DNA from: Leptolyngbyaceae cyanobacterium RM1_406_9
Lineage (GTDB): Bacteria > Cyanobacteriota > Cyanobacteriia > Elainellales > Elainellaceae
DNA: 42,103 bases
Assembly: GCA_012033355.1 (NCBI GenBank)
Contig: JAAUQZ010000011.1
Location: forward strand, 1 to 42,103
Direction: 5' to 3'
The notes beneath the pieces are model-generated. The model worked only from the letters and a program-made list of their open reading frames with translations, made no database searches and was not told where the DNA came from. The position numbers and the translations under genes were made by a program. Below, piece after piece: positions 12,594 through 18,516 of the stretch. Position 1 is the stretch's first letter, and the number at the start of each line of letters is the position of its first letter.

Positions 12594-13304
12594 ATGTACT
12601 CAGTATCCTCACAATCCGATACAGCCCGTCCTTTCCTGACCTGGCAAAGAATTTTGGACTGGGCCCAAGAACATTACCGCTGTCGGACTTTTGCCAAAGA
12701 CGAGAAGATTCCGGCTCGACCTGGACTGCTTTATTTAGTTCAGCGAGGTGCTGTGCGATTAGTTGGCGAGGCTCAGGTGAGCGCCACTGCCAGCAATTCT
12801 TCTCGCCTGCCCCGAATTAATTCTGAAGAAGCCTTTTTGGGGTTTGTCGGTGCCGGGCAGCCCTTTGAAATTGTAGCTCAGTCTCCTTTTACGTTGCAGA
12901 GTTTAGCCCATGTTGACAATACTGCCGTGATCTGGATGTATTGGCACGATCTAGATAATTGGCCCCATTTCCGCCGTGAGGTGCTAGATGCTTTTCGCTA
13001 TCAGCATCAGCGTAAGCTTTTGTGGCTCAGCACGCTAGGCCAACGTCGCACAATCGATCGCCTGTTAGGGTTTTTAACGCTGCTGATCGAAGAGTTTGGT
13101 GAACCTTGCGAAGAGGGATATTGTTTGCCCTGGGCACTGACTCACGCCCAAATTGGTAGTGCGATTGGCTCGACGCGGGTTACGGTGACTCGTCTAATGG
13201 GTAAGCTCAGGCAGCGATCGCTGATTCGTACCTATGGCGACAATTTACTTTGTTTACCTGCTGAGTCTGTTATTCAGCGCGGCGAATCTGTTGCTCAGCG
13301 TTGA
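12594..13304 (+). CDS. CRP/FNR-family transcriptional regulator
   Basis: This is a 236-residue regulator. Residues about 20-130 form a divergent cyclic-nucleotide-binding-type beta-barrel (IPARPGLLYLVQRGAVRLVG). A long dimerisation helix follows, then a crp-type HTH at about 175-230 (LTHAQIGSAIGSTRVTVTRL), very similar to that of NtcA. The cAMP-binding phosphate cassette (RxS) is not evident, so the ligand is unknown or absent. It is not NtcA itself, because the N-terminal domain differs. It is transcribed away from the DALR gene, with a possible NtcA-like promoter upstream. Targets are unknown; autoregulation through the upstream inverted repeat is possible. Confidence 0.85.
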   Translation: MYSVSSQSDTARPFLTWQRILDWAQEHYRCRTFAKDEKIPARPGLLYLVQRGAVRLVGEAQVSATASNSSRLPRINSEEAFLGFVGAGQPFEIVAQSPFTLQSLAHVDNTAVIWMYWHDLDNWPHFRREVLDAFRYQHQRKLLWLSTLGQRRTIDRLLGFLTLLIEEFGEPCEEGYCLPWALTHAQIGSAIGSTRVTVTRLMGKLRQRSLIRTYGDNLLCLPAESVIQRGESVAQR

Positions 13305-13389: not shown

Positions 13390-14463
13390 CTAACGAATTC
13401 GGACAAACCCAGACGCTTCGATTAACGCCTGCCCCTGATCGGTAAGCAGTAGATTGGCATAGGCTTCTCCGGCTTGCTGATCAATCTGGCCATTTTGCTT
13501 AACCACAACAAATAGCCTGCGGGTGATTGGGTATTCGCCCGTTTGAAATGCATCTGAATTTAGCTGGGTGCGCTGGGACGAACCGCCACACTGAGAGCCA
13601 ATAATTAGCGGCTCGATATAGGGCGCTACAAACGAATCGCCAGAGCGGGCACTAATCGGAATGGGCTTAACGGTGCATTGACCTACGATTTCCGGTGCAG
13701 AAGCGTAGTAAATTCCACCTGGATCAGTTGAGACTTCCCGCAAAGCTTGGGTTGTAGTGTCAATGAAGCGGGTGCTGTTGCCAAAGTTTTGCCCTCCCAG
13801 GATGTTTGCGACGAAAAATTCAACGGTGCCGCCGTCTTCCACTCGACGGGAGTAGGGTGTGATGGGTAAGTTGGGACCACCGACCTGATTCCAGTTGGTG
13901 ATTTGCCCCGTGTAAATGTCTCTCAGTTGATCCAGGGTTATTCCAGAAAGGTTGAGGTTGGGGTTGATGGCGATCGCCATTCCCTCTAGCGCAACGGGAA
14001 TTTCTCTCAAAGTAAAGCCACGCTGCTCTGCCTCCTGATATTCCTGGGGGTTAAGCGCACGGGAGGACTGGGAAAAGGCAAGCTGATTGTCGAGCAGCAT
14101 CCGAATGCCGCTAGCAGAGCCGGGAGTATCTCCAGAGGGAGGGTTTGTGTAGCGCAGTTGATAGCCAGACCAAACGCTTTGAATCACGGGATCAACCTGT
14201 CCGCGAATGGGGGCCCAGGTGGTGCTGCCGCCATAGCTAAACAGCCCGGAGGGAACGTTGGGTACTCCTGCAAAATCGTCTGCAACGGGGGCAGGCGGAA
14301 CAGAGGATGAGCTAGAAGAACCGGGAGACGGGTCTGGACCTCGTCCCAGTAAGTTGCCCAATCCAGAACCCGATCGGGTGAACCACCAAACGCCGCCGCC
14401 AATCAGCGCGAGTGTGATCAGCAGAGAGATGAGCAGGGCCGGTGTTTCATTCTTCTGAGCCAT
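13390..14463 (-). CDS. membrane-anchored PstS-like phosphate-binding domain protein
   Basis: This 357-residue protein has a signal anchor (MAQKNETPALLISLLITLA, one TM to about residue 28), a Ser/Pro-rich linker and a PstS-type PBP fold. Family-like features are GLFSYGGSTTWAPI at the domain start, FSQSSRALNPQE, the LRDIYTGQITNWNQVGGP segment typical of PstS-like proteins, and a C-terminus matching YANLLLTDQGQALIEASGFV. No pstC, pstA or pstB genes are adjacent, so a transport role is doubtful. It is last in a minus-strand run after a Ser/Thr kinase and another binding protein with the same N-terminal anchor, which suggests ligand sensing; that is inference. Confidence 0.85.
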   Translation of the reverse strand: MAQKNETPALLISLLITLALIGGGVWWFTRSGSGLGNLLGRGPDPSPGSSSSSSVPPAPVADDFAGVPNVPSGLFSYGGSTTWAPIRGQVDPVIQSVWSGYQLRYTNPPSGDTPGSASGIRMLLDNQLAFSQSSRALNPQEYQEAEQRGFTLREIPVALEGMAIAINPNLNLSGITLDQLRDIYTGQITNWNQVGGPNLPITPYSRRVEDGGTVEFFVANILGGQNFGNSTRFIDTTTQALREVSTDPGGIYYASAPEIVGQCTVKPIPISARSGDSFVAPYIEPLIIGSQCGGSSQRTQLNSDAFQTGEYPITRRLFVVVKQNGQIDQQAGEAYANLLLTDQGQALIEASGFVRIR

Positions 14464-14547
14464 AGTTGCTGGGGTGCGATCGCATTCCCTTTTATAGTGC
14501 TACAGATTTAAGTCTTGATTAACCAAGTTAAGTTCTTTAAGCGATCG

Positions 14548-15981
14548 TCATGGCACGGGCACAAAATCGTAACCATAACCAGAGCGAGATCCCGGTTCGA
14601 TGATGACCAACTGCGCTGCCTGGTTGCGATCGCCCGATGGCAAAAACCGAATTGTACCCGTTGCTCCCTCAACTGCAAAGCCGCTGACGTTGAGCGTTTG
14701 CCGAATGCCTTCACGAGTTGGGTTGGTTTCCAGTCCCGCAATCAAAGCCTGGGTTGCGTCATAGGCCATTGCCGTCCGCCAGTTCACGTCACCTCCCCAA
14801 AAGGTTCGAGAAGACTGAACAAACTCTGCCTGTGGGTCAGAGAGAATGTGCCAGGGCACGGCAACCACCATGCCAACGGCGGCTTCTCCCCCAACCTGAA
14901 GCGTTTTGGGAGTGTAAGTGCCGTCTCCACCGAGCAGGGGCAACTGCCCACGATTGACTGCTACGGCCTGTAGCGCCTGATCCAGCATGGCGGCATTAGC
15001 AACCAAAACCAGAACTTCCGCGTCCTGTTCGGCGGCTTGTTGCAGCGTGTCGGCGGCGCTAAAAGCGGGATCAGCCAGGTCAAACTCTGCCAAAATTTGC
15101 CCACCATCGCCATAAAGTGCAGTTGTAAATTCGTTCTTCAGCGACTGGCTATAGGCGCTCTCCGAACTAAAGTAAATCGCAGCATTTTGAGCTTGCAGGG
15201 TGTTGACCATGTAGCGGGAAAGCGCCGCAGCGGTGAAGCGATCGCTTGGCACAGTGCGAAACACATAATCACCCACTTCTGAAAGCTGCGTTGCCGTGCT
15301 GGTGGGCGAAATCATCACCAGCCCAGTGCTTTGATAGATTTCTGCGCTCGCTAGCGTTGCCTCACTGCTAAAGTGCCCTACCACACCTAATACTTCTGAA
15401 TTGTCTGCCAGTGCTTCCGCCACTTGTTGAGAGACCTGCGGATCGTTGTCATCACTGGCGACCAGCACCTTTAGCGGTACACCGTTAATGCCACCTGCCT
15501 GGTTAACTTCAGTTTGAGCCTGAGCTACACCTCTGAGAATTTCCTGCGCCGGATTTATAAAGGTCGCTGCTGGGACTGAGACAGCAACCGTGTAAGCAGT
15601 TTGATTACCGATTTGAGCATTGTTGAGGTAAATTAGCGCTTCAGGATCGTTGCGATTAGCCTGAAGTGCTGCTTCCAGGTCGGAGACTGCTTGCTCAAAG
15701 TTGCCAGCGGCGATCGCCTCCACACCTGCTTGCTTTTGGGGCGATATCTCAGCCGCAAATAAAACTTTTTCTCCTGCACTCAAGCGTTCCTGAATCGGTG
15801 TAGCGCTGCCATTTCCTGAAGAAGCACTGGTTGAATTGCTATTGCCACTTGCTGTTGGGCTTCCAGGACTGAGCATTCCCGGACTCAGCCGATTAAAAAA
15901 CCACCAGGCTCCGCCACCGAGCAGCGCCAAAGTCAGCAGCAGCGACACGATGAGAACTGGAGTTTCGTTCTTTTGAGCCAT
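14548..15981 (-). CDS. membrane-anchored branched-chain-type receptor-family ligand-binding protein
   Basis: This 477-residue protein has the same anchor as the next gene (MAQKNETPVLIVSLLLTLA, TM to about 28), a Ser/Asn/Gly-rich linker, and a short TPR-like helical pair at about 80-115 (AIAAGNFEQAVSDLEAALQA). A full Peripla_BP_6 receptor domain follows at about 125-470 (LRGVAQAQTEVNQAGGINGV, MISPTSTATQLSE, YVFRTVPSD, AMAYDATQALI). This fold binds amino acids or amides in Liv/Urt transporters and receptors. No permease or ATPase genes are near. It lies 18 bases after the kinase gene on the same strand, so it is probably co-transcribed and a candidate sensor for it. Confidence 0.87.
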   Translation of the reverse strand: MAQKNETPVLIVSLLLTLALLGGGAWWFFNRLSPGMLSPGSPTASGNSNSTSASSGNGSATPIQERLSAGEKVLFAAEISPQKQAGVEAIAAGNFEQAVSDLEAALQANRNDPEALIYLNNAQIGNQTAYTVAVSVPAATFINPAQEILRGVAQAQTEVNQAGGINGVPLKVLVASDDNDPQVSQQVAEALADNSEVLGVVGHFSSEATLASAEIYQSTGLVMISPTSTATQLSEVGDYVFRTVPSDRFTAAALSRYMVNTLQAQNAAIYFSSESAYSQSLKNEFTTALYGDGGQILAEFDLADPAFSAADTLQQAAEQDAEVLVLVANAAMLDQALQAVAVNRGQLPLLGGDGTYTPKTLQVGGEAAVGMVVAVPWHILSDPQAEFVQSSRTFWGGDVNWRTAMAYDATQALIAGLETNPTREGIRQTLNVSGFAVEGATGTIRFLPSGDRNQAAQLVIIEPGSRSGYGYDFVPVP

Positions 15982-15999: not shown

Positions 16000-17484
16000 C
16001 TACATAACGCGGGACAGCAACGTGTAAATCAGGCGGAAGATGATGGTGACAGCGATCGCCAACAGCCCTGCCAGTCCCGCCACAATGACCAGACTGGAAA
16101 GCGGTATCCCAAACCGCAGCACCACAAAGGCAACGACCGCCAGCGTAACTCCAGCAACAATCGGCAAGTCCCATCCTTCAATCACTCGACGAGCCTGAAG
16201 GAAAACCAGAACGGCGATCGCCACCAGCGGCAACCCACCACTCAAGAGCCAAGATCCAGAAAAACTGTAAATGGCGATCGCCAACAGCCCCCCCTCAAAC
16301 CCAGTAAATCCAGCACTCCGAATTAGTTCCAGGGTCGAAAAGGGGCGTGTAGCGGGACGCATCCCTTGTGGAGCAGCAGGCTGCACAGGGACAGGTGCGG
16401 AAGCAGCAGGCATAGGGACAGGGCTGGGAACGGGGGGTGGAGGCGGGGTTTGGTTGGGGGCAGGCGCGGCAACCACTGGTCCTGAAAGGGGGGGCGATGG
16501 AGGTGGGGGCGGAGATGCTGGTTTGACCGTCAAGCTGGCGAGTGCTTCTAGCACTTCATCTGCCGACTGAAAGCGCTGGCTAGGAGTGGGCAACAACATT
16601 CGATTGAGGATAGCTTCCAGGCGATCGCTCACCTGCGTATAGGCTCGCCAAGCCCATGTATTGCTGTAGGAGTCATACAATTCATCAGGCAGCTTCCCTG
16701 TCAAAAGCACAATGCAAGTGACTCCCAGCGCATACAGATCGGTTGACGGAAAAACCTTGTCGCCCCTCATCTGTTCTGGCGGCGCATACAGAGGCGTGTG
16801 AATCCCCGTCGATCCTCTAGCGGCCTGACCTGCAACCGCCGAAGTAAGCTGCTTGACTGCACCAAAATCTAGCAAAAACAGCCGTCCGTCCCGGTGCCGC
16901 ATGATATTAGAAGGCTTGATATCCCGGTGAATGGAGTTGTTATTATGCACAAACCTCAGCACTTTGAGGATTTCAGCTAGCACCTCCAAAACTTCTGTCT
17001 CAGAGAACTGTTTCTTTTGCTCCAGTTCTCGCTCCATGTCCTGTCCGTCAATAAACTCCTGCACCAGGTAGAAGAAGCGATCGGGCTTATTGGGAGTGCG
17101 GCTGGGTACGTCCAACTCAAAAAAAGCCAGCAAGTCAGGAATCTGAGGATGCTTGTTGCCGAGTTCCTCTAATACCTCACCTTCTCGCTCAAACAGCTTT
17201 TGGGCCAGATCCAGCTGGGCCGGACTGAGATCACCCGCAGGCTGAAACTGTTTGACAACGCATTTTCGCATTGCAGGCGTGTAGCGATCGCGGGCCAAAT
17301 ATGCTGCCCCAAATCCACCCCTACCCAGCAGCTTTAACGGCACATAGCGCCCCACCAAAATTAACGGCATCCCGCAGGCAGTGCAATACTTCTGCTGCAC
17401 TGTTTTCAGCGTGGCGCTGTTATCCAGGTCAGCAAAATGGTTAACGGGTCGAGAGCAAGCCGGACGGGTGCAGTGAACTTCCAT
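16000..17484 (-). CDS. membrane Ser/Thr protein kinase with N-terminal zinc ribbon
   Basis: This 494-residue Hanks-type kinase begins with a four-Cys ribbon (C5, C10, C34, C37). The kinase domain spans about 45-310: glycine loop GRGGFGAAY, Lys78 in VVKQF, catalytic loop HRDIKPSN (186-193), DFG at 206-208 and the APPE motif. All key residues are present, so it should be active. A Pro-rich linker (about 318-375) leads to a C-terminal domain with about four TM segments (395-494). The kinase is therefore cytoplasmic and tethered by its C-terminus, with no large periplasmic domain of its own. It lies 12 bases after rbcR and 18 bases before the first anchored binding protein, so those proteins could supply the missing sensor. 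Confidence 0.9.
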   Translation of the reverse strand: MEVHCTRPACSRPVNHFADLDNSATLKTVQQKYCTACGMPLILVGRYVPLKLLGRGGFGAAYLARDRYTPAMRKCVVKQFQPAGDLSPAQLDLAQKLFEREGEVLEELGNKHPQIPDLLAFFELDVPSRTPNKPDRFFYLVQEFIDGQDMERELEQKKQFSETEVLEVLAEILKVLRFVHNNNSIHRDIKPSNIMRHRDGRLFLLDFGAVKQLTSAVAGQAARGSTGIHTPLYAPPEQMRGDKVFPSTDLYALGVTCIVLLTGKLPDELYDSYSNTWAWRAYTQVSDRLEAILNRMLLPTPSQRFQSADEVLEALASLTVKPASPPPPPSPPLSGPVVAAPAPNQTPPPPPVPSPVPMPAASAPVPVQPAAPQGMRPATRPFSTLELIRSAGFTGFEGGLLAIAIYSFSGSWLLSGGLPLVAIAVLVFLQARRVIEGWDLPIVAGVTLAVVAFVVLRFGIPLSSLVIVAGLAGLLAIAVTIIFRLIYTLLSRVM

Positions 17485-17496
17485 AAACCTCGTGAC

Positions 17497-18516
17497 CTAC
17501 TTTCCTCCAGGGTTGGAGGTGGTTGCCTCTAGTGAGAGCGGTTTGACAGGCTCGGCTGCATCTTTATCAATCCTATCGTCCACCGTGACCGGCTTATGAC
17601 TGGCAAACTGCGGCAGAATCTCTTCAAAGAAAGCCTCTGCCGCCTTAGAGCGATAGCGATTGGGATTGATAATCACTGAAAGCGTGCGATTGACCACCAC
17701 GTCTTCAATCCTGGCGCGGTGCAATACGCCCATCTGTAGCTCTTTCTCAATTGCCGAAATTGAGACAAACGCAGCACCTAACCCAGCCTGTACCGCATTT
17801 TTAATTGCTTCAATCGAATTTAGCTCCATTTCGATTTTGAGACGACGGGTTTCAATCCCGCAGCGCGTCAAAACCTGGTCAATCACTTTGCGAATCGTGG
17901 ACTGAGAATCGAGGGTAATGAACTGAAGTTTGTAGAGGTCTTCTTTCTGTACGGTGCTTAAGTGGGCAAGAGAATGCAGAACGGGTAAAATCAGCGCAAG
18001 CTCATCTTCTGCATACGGAATAATTTCTAGCGAGTCCTGTAGTTCTGGAGGCACTTCACCGCCAATGATGGCCAGGTCAATCTGCCCGTTTGCTACACTC
18101 CAGGCGGTACGGCGGGTGGAATGAACGTGAAGCTGCACCGCTACATCTGGGTAATTCTGCCGAAACAAGCCAATCATCCGGGGCAGCAGGTACGTTCCTG
18201 TGGTTTGGCTTGCCCCCACAATCAGAGTGCCACCCTGAAGATTTTGCAAATCTTCGATCGCCCGACAGGTTTCCTGACAGAGCGTCAAGATGCGATCGCC
18301 ATAGCTGAGCAACAGGTGCCCCGCTTCGGTCAACTGTGCCCGCCTGCCGCCCCGATCAAACAAAGGCACATCTAACTGTCGCTCCAGATTTTGCACCTGA
18401 AGGCTGACGGCAGGCTGAGAAACATAGAGACTATCAGCGGCACGCTTAAAGCTTCCCTCGGCAGCGATCGCCTTAAGAATCCGCAACTGATCCAAAGTAA
18501 AAGGAAGGTCAGACAT
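17497..18516 (-). CDS. rbcR: RbcR-type LysR transcriptional regulator
   Basis: This 339-residue LysR regulator has an N-terminal winged HTH (residues 1-66: [20 protein letters not shown], then [20 protein letters not shown]) and a periplasmic-binding-like effector domain (about 90-300). The N-terminus is nearly what I recall for cyanobacterial RbcR and plastid Ycf30, which control Rubisco and other Calvin-cycle genes in response to metabolite state. The C-terminal 35 residues are a variable tail. No Rubisco genes are in the window. It heads a tight minus-strand run with the Ser/Thr kinase, an unexpected pairing that could place the kinase module under rbcR's promoter. Confidence 0.9.

Follow-up and report, generated by a model that had tools for sequence, protein, structure and literature searches.

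Two neighbouring genes in a cyanobacterial genome encode solute-binding proteins (SBPs) of different fold types that begin with the same N-terminal membrane anchor, and this anchor is conserved to a similar extent as the SBP domains themselves and co-occurs at the genome level with one Ser/Thr kinase family. We consider it fairly probable that the system as a whole is a split transmembrane receptor, in which the anchored SBPs serve as ectodomains of the kinase and share an ancient common anchor. The window, that is, the whole stretch of 42,103 nucleotides analysed here from Leptolyngbyaceae cyanobacterium RM1_406_9 (contig JAAUQZ010000011.1, labelled G000:C178 in our set), carries on its minus strand a gene set of a LysR regulator, the kinase, a LivJ-like SBP and a PstS-like SBP, with a Crp-type regulator on the plus strand (Table 1).

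Table 1. Features of the anchored SBP and kinase locus, in window positions.
Feature	Position	Strand	Basis
PstS-like type II solute-binding protein, anchored, 357 aa	13390..14463	-	Pfam PBP_like_2 (PF12849)
LivJ-like type I solute-binding protein, anchored, 477 aa	14548..15981	-	Pfam Peripla_BP_6/ANF_receptor (PF13458/PF01094)
Anchor of the PstS-like protein, residues 1-29: MAQKNETPALLISLLITLALIGGGVWWFT	14377..14463	-	Matches the anchor model in the window genome
Anchor of the LivJ-like protein, residues 1-29: MAQKNETPVLIVSLLLTLALLGGGAWWFF	15895..15981	-	Alignment and anchor model
Ser/Thr kinase, 494 aa: 4-Cys prefix, intact catalytic motifs, multi-pass C-terminal TM region	16000..17484	-	
Membrane region at the C terminus of the kinase (residues 378-494; some 4 TM helices, counted by eye)	16003..16353	-	
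Kinase stop codon TAG	16000..16002	-	In frame with the LivJ-like ATG 18 bp downstream
LysR-type regulator; conserved neighbour on the upstream side of the kinase	17497..18516	-	Pfam and synteny
Crp/Fnr-type regulator, conserved neighbour, opposite flank	12594..13304	+	Pfam, NCBIfam and synteny

The order LysR-kinase-LivJ-[PstS]-Crp is syntenic throughout the family. The kinase locus of other families holds anchored SBPs in varying number and order, for example PstS-LivJ-PstS or PstS-PstS. The LivJ-like protein consists of the anchor, a Ser-rich linker, a TPR-like segment and Peripla_BP_6, where the TPR call by Pfam is restricted to one homologue (L305). The kinase combines the 4-Cys prefix (NF045510, residues 4-41, 41.9 bits against a cut-off of 24) with a kinase domain (Pkinase, E = 5.8e-36) in which VVKQ, HRDIKPSN and DFG were read in the sequence. 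It thereby resembles other 4-Cys prefix kinases, in which the N-terminal motif is followed by a Hanks kinase domain, but it differs from them in adding a multi-pass C-terminal TM domain and conserved anchored SBP neighbours. SpkB of Synechocystis is presumably related to this group. Inspection of residues 378-494 revealed no extracellular sensor domain in the TM region of the kinase, and its first TM helix, which includes GFxGxEG, is the most conserved stretch of the membrane domain and might be a site of contact.

The PstS-like and LivJ-like proteins begin with MAQKNETPALLISLLITLALIGGGVWWF and MAQKNETPVLIVSLLLTLALLGGGAWWF, respectively. As the initial annotation had proposed, the two carry one N-terminal anchor: 22 of the 30 N-terminal residues are identical (73%), and the local alignment of residues 1-60 scored 142, whereas the maximum from 2,000 shuffles was 69. 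Both anchors are followed by a Ser-rich linker, and past residue 45 the similarity became undetectable, with a score of 58, while shuffles reached up to 61. The folds behind the anchor had been described as unrelated, which holds in that no sequence similarity was detected and the Pfam families differ, although both are bilobal periplasmic-binding-protein types (I and II). At the DNA level, 61 of the 90 anchor bases are identical (68%), compared with 7-12 of 30 past the anchor and 15 of 60 upstream. Among 19 identical residues other than Met and Trp, however, the same codon was used at 8, where 6.0 would be expected if codon choice were independent. Because the shared residues alone predict it, the DNA similarity, which had been correctly noticed, adds no information to theirs and is no sign of recent copying. 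Both genes could have obtained one anchor if the 5' end had recently been duplicated in tandem or if gene conversion had taken place, and the restriction of the identity to the anchor, in protein as in DNA, would fit such an event. We nevertheless regard it as extremely improbable and discarded it, since synonymous codons are nearly randomised and since anchors paired within one locus are no more alike (0.631) than anchors paired across close relatives (0.622, p = 0.39); the same gene arrangement is also found in many families. The earlier idea of a duplicated or swapped module is thus retained insofar as one module is common to different ectodomains, but not as a recent event, considering that codon divergence is near saturation.

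The anchor, which follows the formula MxQKNET, TM helix and GGGxWWF, is widespread in cyanobacteria and is present on type I and type II SBPs across dozens of genomes. It was found in 33 of 36 genomes of the same family and in 46 of 156 genomes of a phylum sample, and the window genome has a third copy on a different contig, on a diverged PstS-like paralogue. When the head alone was scanned as the DNA pattern M[AS]QKNET over 84,980 species genomes, all cyanobacterial matches inspected among those listed continued into a TM helix, except three short chance frames. The frames long enough to classify among the matches listed encode a domain of the LivJ, PstS or PstSb type or, in one case, a WD40 propeller. 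The non-cyanobacterial matches listed had no TM anchor and reached at most 13 bits; a chance origin of the seven-residue head was ruled out on the basis of these matches, which lack the TM anchor. In the open-access literature searched, we found no earlier description of the KNET anchor.

To judge conservation, the anchor was compared with the parts that follow it. Between orthologues, the anchor is 51-56% identical and the SBP domain 51-60%, whereas the linker is 16-20% identical; within the anchor, identity is 60-72% in the eight-residue head and about 50-53% over the TM part. The lipoprotein leaders that other type I SBPs of this phylum carry served as a control: compared at similar SBP domain identity, they are about 25% identical (20 pairs), where the chance level given by unrelated lipoprotein leaders is 23%. 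Anchor identity across folds equals that within one fold (0.50 and 0.50 for LivJ), and orphan anchors, defined by the lack of a kinase in the flanking sequence fetched, show about the same conservation as those next to a kinase. The anchor therefore does not vary freely in orthologues, and the proposal that its sequence matters is borne out, since it is conserved like the SBP domains. The anchor is phylum-wide and under selection. Within the TM helix, constraint is strongest at L10, L14, T17, L20, G24 and W26. The helical periodicity of the conserved positions is weak (p = 0.03 for residues 9-28 and 0.14 for residues 9-24), and the idea of one conserved helix face was dropped, being dependent on the residue range.

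The anchor is tied at the genome level to one Ser/Thr kinase family. With orthologous kinases called at E ≤ 1e-80, which were found in 45 of the 156 genomes, both kinase and anchor were present in 41 genomes, the anchor only in 5, the kinase without a detectable anchor in 4 and neither in 106 (Fisher p = 2e-27, in a test that ignores phylogeny). Four of the five anchor-only genomes encode a fragment of a kinase adjacent to the anchored gene, in one case at a contig edge, and the fifth is a reduced genome of 2.8 Mb. In genome G151, a kinase remnant (L123:4310-5013 (+)) has kept its 4-Cys start and TM region, its catalytic domain being deleted, and downstream of it lies an intact gene for an anchored PstS-like protein. 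The anchor is accordingly not found mainly in genomes that lack the kinase. As for immediate neighbourhood, the kinase lies within 5 kb for 33 of the 67 anchored genes of the phylum sample, so that the expected association stands at the level of genomes but about half of the anchored genes are orphans. In families f2, f8 and f10, the kinase and the anchored SBP are located at separate places, and in related genomes the two are mostly present or absent together.

The kinase and the LivJ-like SBP also occur joined. Complete single chains, in which a kinase domain precedes TM, TPR-like and Peripla_BP_6 regions, were found in three genomes (L303, L307 and L308), and these latter regions are homologous to the LivJ-like protein. 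At L053:4563-6602 (-), a kinase without a stop codon continues as one kinase-anchor-SBP frame of 679 aa, after which the SBP is frameshifted; because of this interruption, the locus is possibly decaying or misassembled, and it may be a natural fusion, a pseudogene or an assembly error. In the window, the kinase and the SBP are separate genes divided by the TAG codon and do not form one polypeptide. For 37 non-redundant loci, co-divergence was assessed by a partial Mantel test with the LysR neighbour as control. SBP divergence correlated with that of the kinase domain (r = 0.41, p = 0.0005), which favours an SBP-kinase partnership. Between the anchor and the kinase TM region, no covariation was detected over the same 37 loci (r = -0.04, p = 0.64). 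Anchor-kinase TM co-evolution was therefore rejected, and the co-divergence data do not support an interface at which anchor and kinase TM region co-vary. The missing covariation weighs less, however, since a near-invariant interface would leave little signal, and docking of the anchor itself on the kinase TM bundle seems plausible.

Both SBPs could alternatively be transporter parts, for uptake of branched-chain amino acids and phosphate, that lie beside the kinase incidentally. Their domain families and PDB relatives are indeed those of ABC-transporter SBPs: the solved relatives of the LivJ-like protein are leucine-binding proteins, and the solved structure nearest to the PstS-like protein is Sll0540 (PDB 9l8j, 74 bits). 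Both proteins nonetheless remained below the NCBIfam transporter cut-offs, the PstS-like one with 126.5 against 206.6 (TIGR02136) and 35.1 against 205 (TIGR00975), and the LivJ-like one with 85.3 against 477 for the LIV-type transporter. Among the phosphate-site motifs of PstS (GST-T and R-x3-SGT), GSTT is conserved in the PstS-like protein, and the second motif reads R-V-E-D-G-G-T, with Gly instead of Ser at this site in 75 of the 80 homologues. Neither the window neighbours scanned with Pfam nor the ten neighbours sampled at orphan loci include an ABC permease or ATPase gene. With the kinase operon conserved and kinase-SBP fusions in existence as well, a transport role with incidental adjacency is very unlikely, and many cyanobacterial genes annotated as orphan PstS/LivJ transport may encode receptors.

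In the proposed receptor, the catalytic domain of the kinase would lie in the cytoplasm and its C-terminal bundle in the membrane, with no sensor of its own outside. The two SBPs, LivJ-like and PstS-like, would be uncleaved single-span signal-anchor proteins with their binding domains outside the plasma membrane, tied to the membrane by the flexible Ser-rich linker. Almost all anchors have no lipobox or Cys, and the charges flanking the TM helix slightly favour an N-in orientation. We infer an N-in topology, sensing of a ligand, regulation of the kinase and physical contact through the anchor: a ligand outside would alter the SBP-kinase contact and, in turn, kinase activity. The common anchor would be an ancient cassette under protein-level selection, which most likely brings alternative sensors to one place in the membrane, probably next to the TM bundle of the kinase, and different ectodomains could thereby report to one kinase. 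Against this reading count the four kinase-bearing genomes in which no anchor was detected, the intact anchored gene beside the kinase remnant of G151, the equal conservation of orphan anchors, the lack of anchor-kinase TM covariation and the weak periodicity of the anchor helix. Stimuli are known for a minority of bacterial Ser/Thr kinases and for hardly any cyanobacterial ones, and dedicated, interchangeable binding-protein ectodomains would offer a direct way to the ligands of a widespread kinase. The shared anchor also lets anchor swapping probe how separate sensors are assigned to a membrane kinase.

A second anchor class, SGPPPIVFILLF..GGGYWWFF, occurs on LivJ-like and PstSb proteins (L386-L400 and L404; class model A3) and on a PQQ/BamB-type propeller of genome G084 (L391:3953-5140 (-)), near VWA, PP2C and Pkinase genes. 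The surroundings of this propeller resemble a VWA/phosphatase/kinase triad, and the PstSb members of the class are usually encoded directly after a conserved PspA/IM30-family gene. Since both SBP folds share the second class too, cross-fold sharing of an anchor arose at least two times, which supports modularity and at the same time weakens specificity to one kinase. The KNET anchor might accordingly be a generic cyanobacterial signal-anchor or sorting signal, for SRP/Sec insertion or for targeting to the plasma versus the thylakoid membrane, conserved independently of the kinase, and the co-occurrence would then reflect shared lineage or contact through the SBP domain only. We hold this to be possible, if somewhat doubtful. 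It agrees with the equal conservation of orphan copies, with the lack of anchor-kinase TM covariation, with the recurrence of the GGGYWWF exit motif on anchors without the KNET head, and with the second class, which is common to LivJ-like and PstS-like proteins and one PQQ propeller and tracks the window kinase loosely (9 of 16 clear genomes). On the other hand, the KNET class co-occurs with the kinase by genome even where the two are unlinked, and the same ectodomains bear other anchors in kinase-lacking genomes (PPPIV in G037, G096, G102 and G159, and an unrelated one in G100). A generic signal would also be expected on many unrelated carriers, whereas the M[AS]QKNET scan gave only the ectodomain types named above among the matches listed. 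Going beyond the split receptor, short N-terminal anchors could be membrane address tags that, class by class (MxQKNET, SGPPPIVF), send unrelated ectodomains (type I and type II SBPs, beta-propellers, a hydrolase) to a matching membrane kinase or signalling complex. We offer this generalisation as rather unlikely; if true, it would mean plug-in sensors, with many ligands read by one kinase.

In comparison with known systems, the proposed split receptor would be a further form of already known SBP-linked Ser/Thr kinase signalling and no new type of system. Control of a Ser/Thr kinase by an SBP has been demonstrated for PknG in the GlnH-GlnX-PknG system of Actinobacteria (PMC6069109, PMC9769921). 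The likeness is one of organisation: a kinase operon includes an SBP for signalling rather than transport, and sensing takes place outside while the kinase acts inside, as is proposed for the window. The soluble PknG, however, needs a separate 4-TM receptor, GlnX, whereas the window kinase has its own TM region, and GlnH is a lipoprotein, whereas the window SBPs sit on an uncleaved TM anchor common to two folds. The pairing of a GlnX-like 4-TM receptor with a lipoprotein SBP was thus not found here, considering the near-complete lack of lipoboxes and the TM region within the kinase. Kinases and SBPs in single chains have been seen before, as kinase plus ANF receptor in Nostoc 7120 and as kinase plus solute-binding domain in Streptomyces (PMC1262709). 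These also combine a kinase with a type I SBP, of which the three complete chains described above are fused LivJ-like versions. The window differs in that kinase and SBPs are encoded separately, in that its kinase is of the 4-Cys multi-TM group, and in that several alternative SBPs of two folds can be present at a single kinase locus. The PstS-like domain of Sll0540 from Synechocystis is close to that of orphan anchored copies (282 bits to L122), but it belongs to the orphan (PSTSb) subfamily and is distant from the window PstS-like protein. The match of the 9l8j chain starts downstream of the anchor, and no function of Sll0540 was found in the open-access literature searched.

The profile search with the anchor had been suggested as a means of finding it on other fold types, and it was found once each on a WD40 propeller and on a GHL10-like hydrolase. 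No further anchored WD40 protein was present in 386 phylum genomes (a sample without a positive control) or, the source genome aside, in 35 family genomes, so the WD40 protein is a single case. The GHL10-like hydrolase with a KNET anchor, found in one genome, is likewise a single case, because its relatives bear different TM helices; its anchored ORF may be truncated. In Oculatella sp. LEGE 06141 (L402:4238-11104), the anchored WD40 propeller is encoded directly upstream of a 1807-aa hybrid of Ser/Thr kinase, AAA, GAF and histidine kinase domains. A 650-aa protein (L415:937-2889 (-)) has a PstSb-like stretch past its TM helix and also matches the GHL10-like hydrolase. Proteins joining an NMT1-like SBP to OmpA, in the window genome (L004 from 1501, contig C194) and at L158:3867-5441 (-), have a weakly similar N-terminal anchor, MSKRIDPAL.., and were left out of the anchor counts, as they score about 20 bits to the anchor model.
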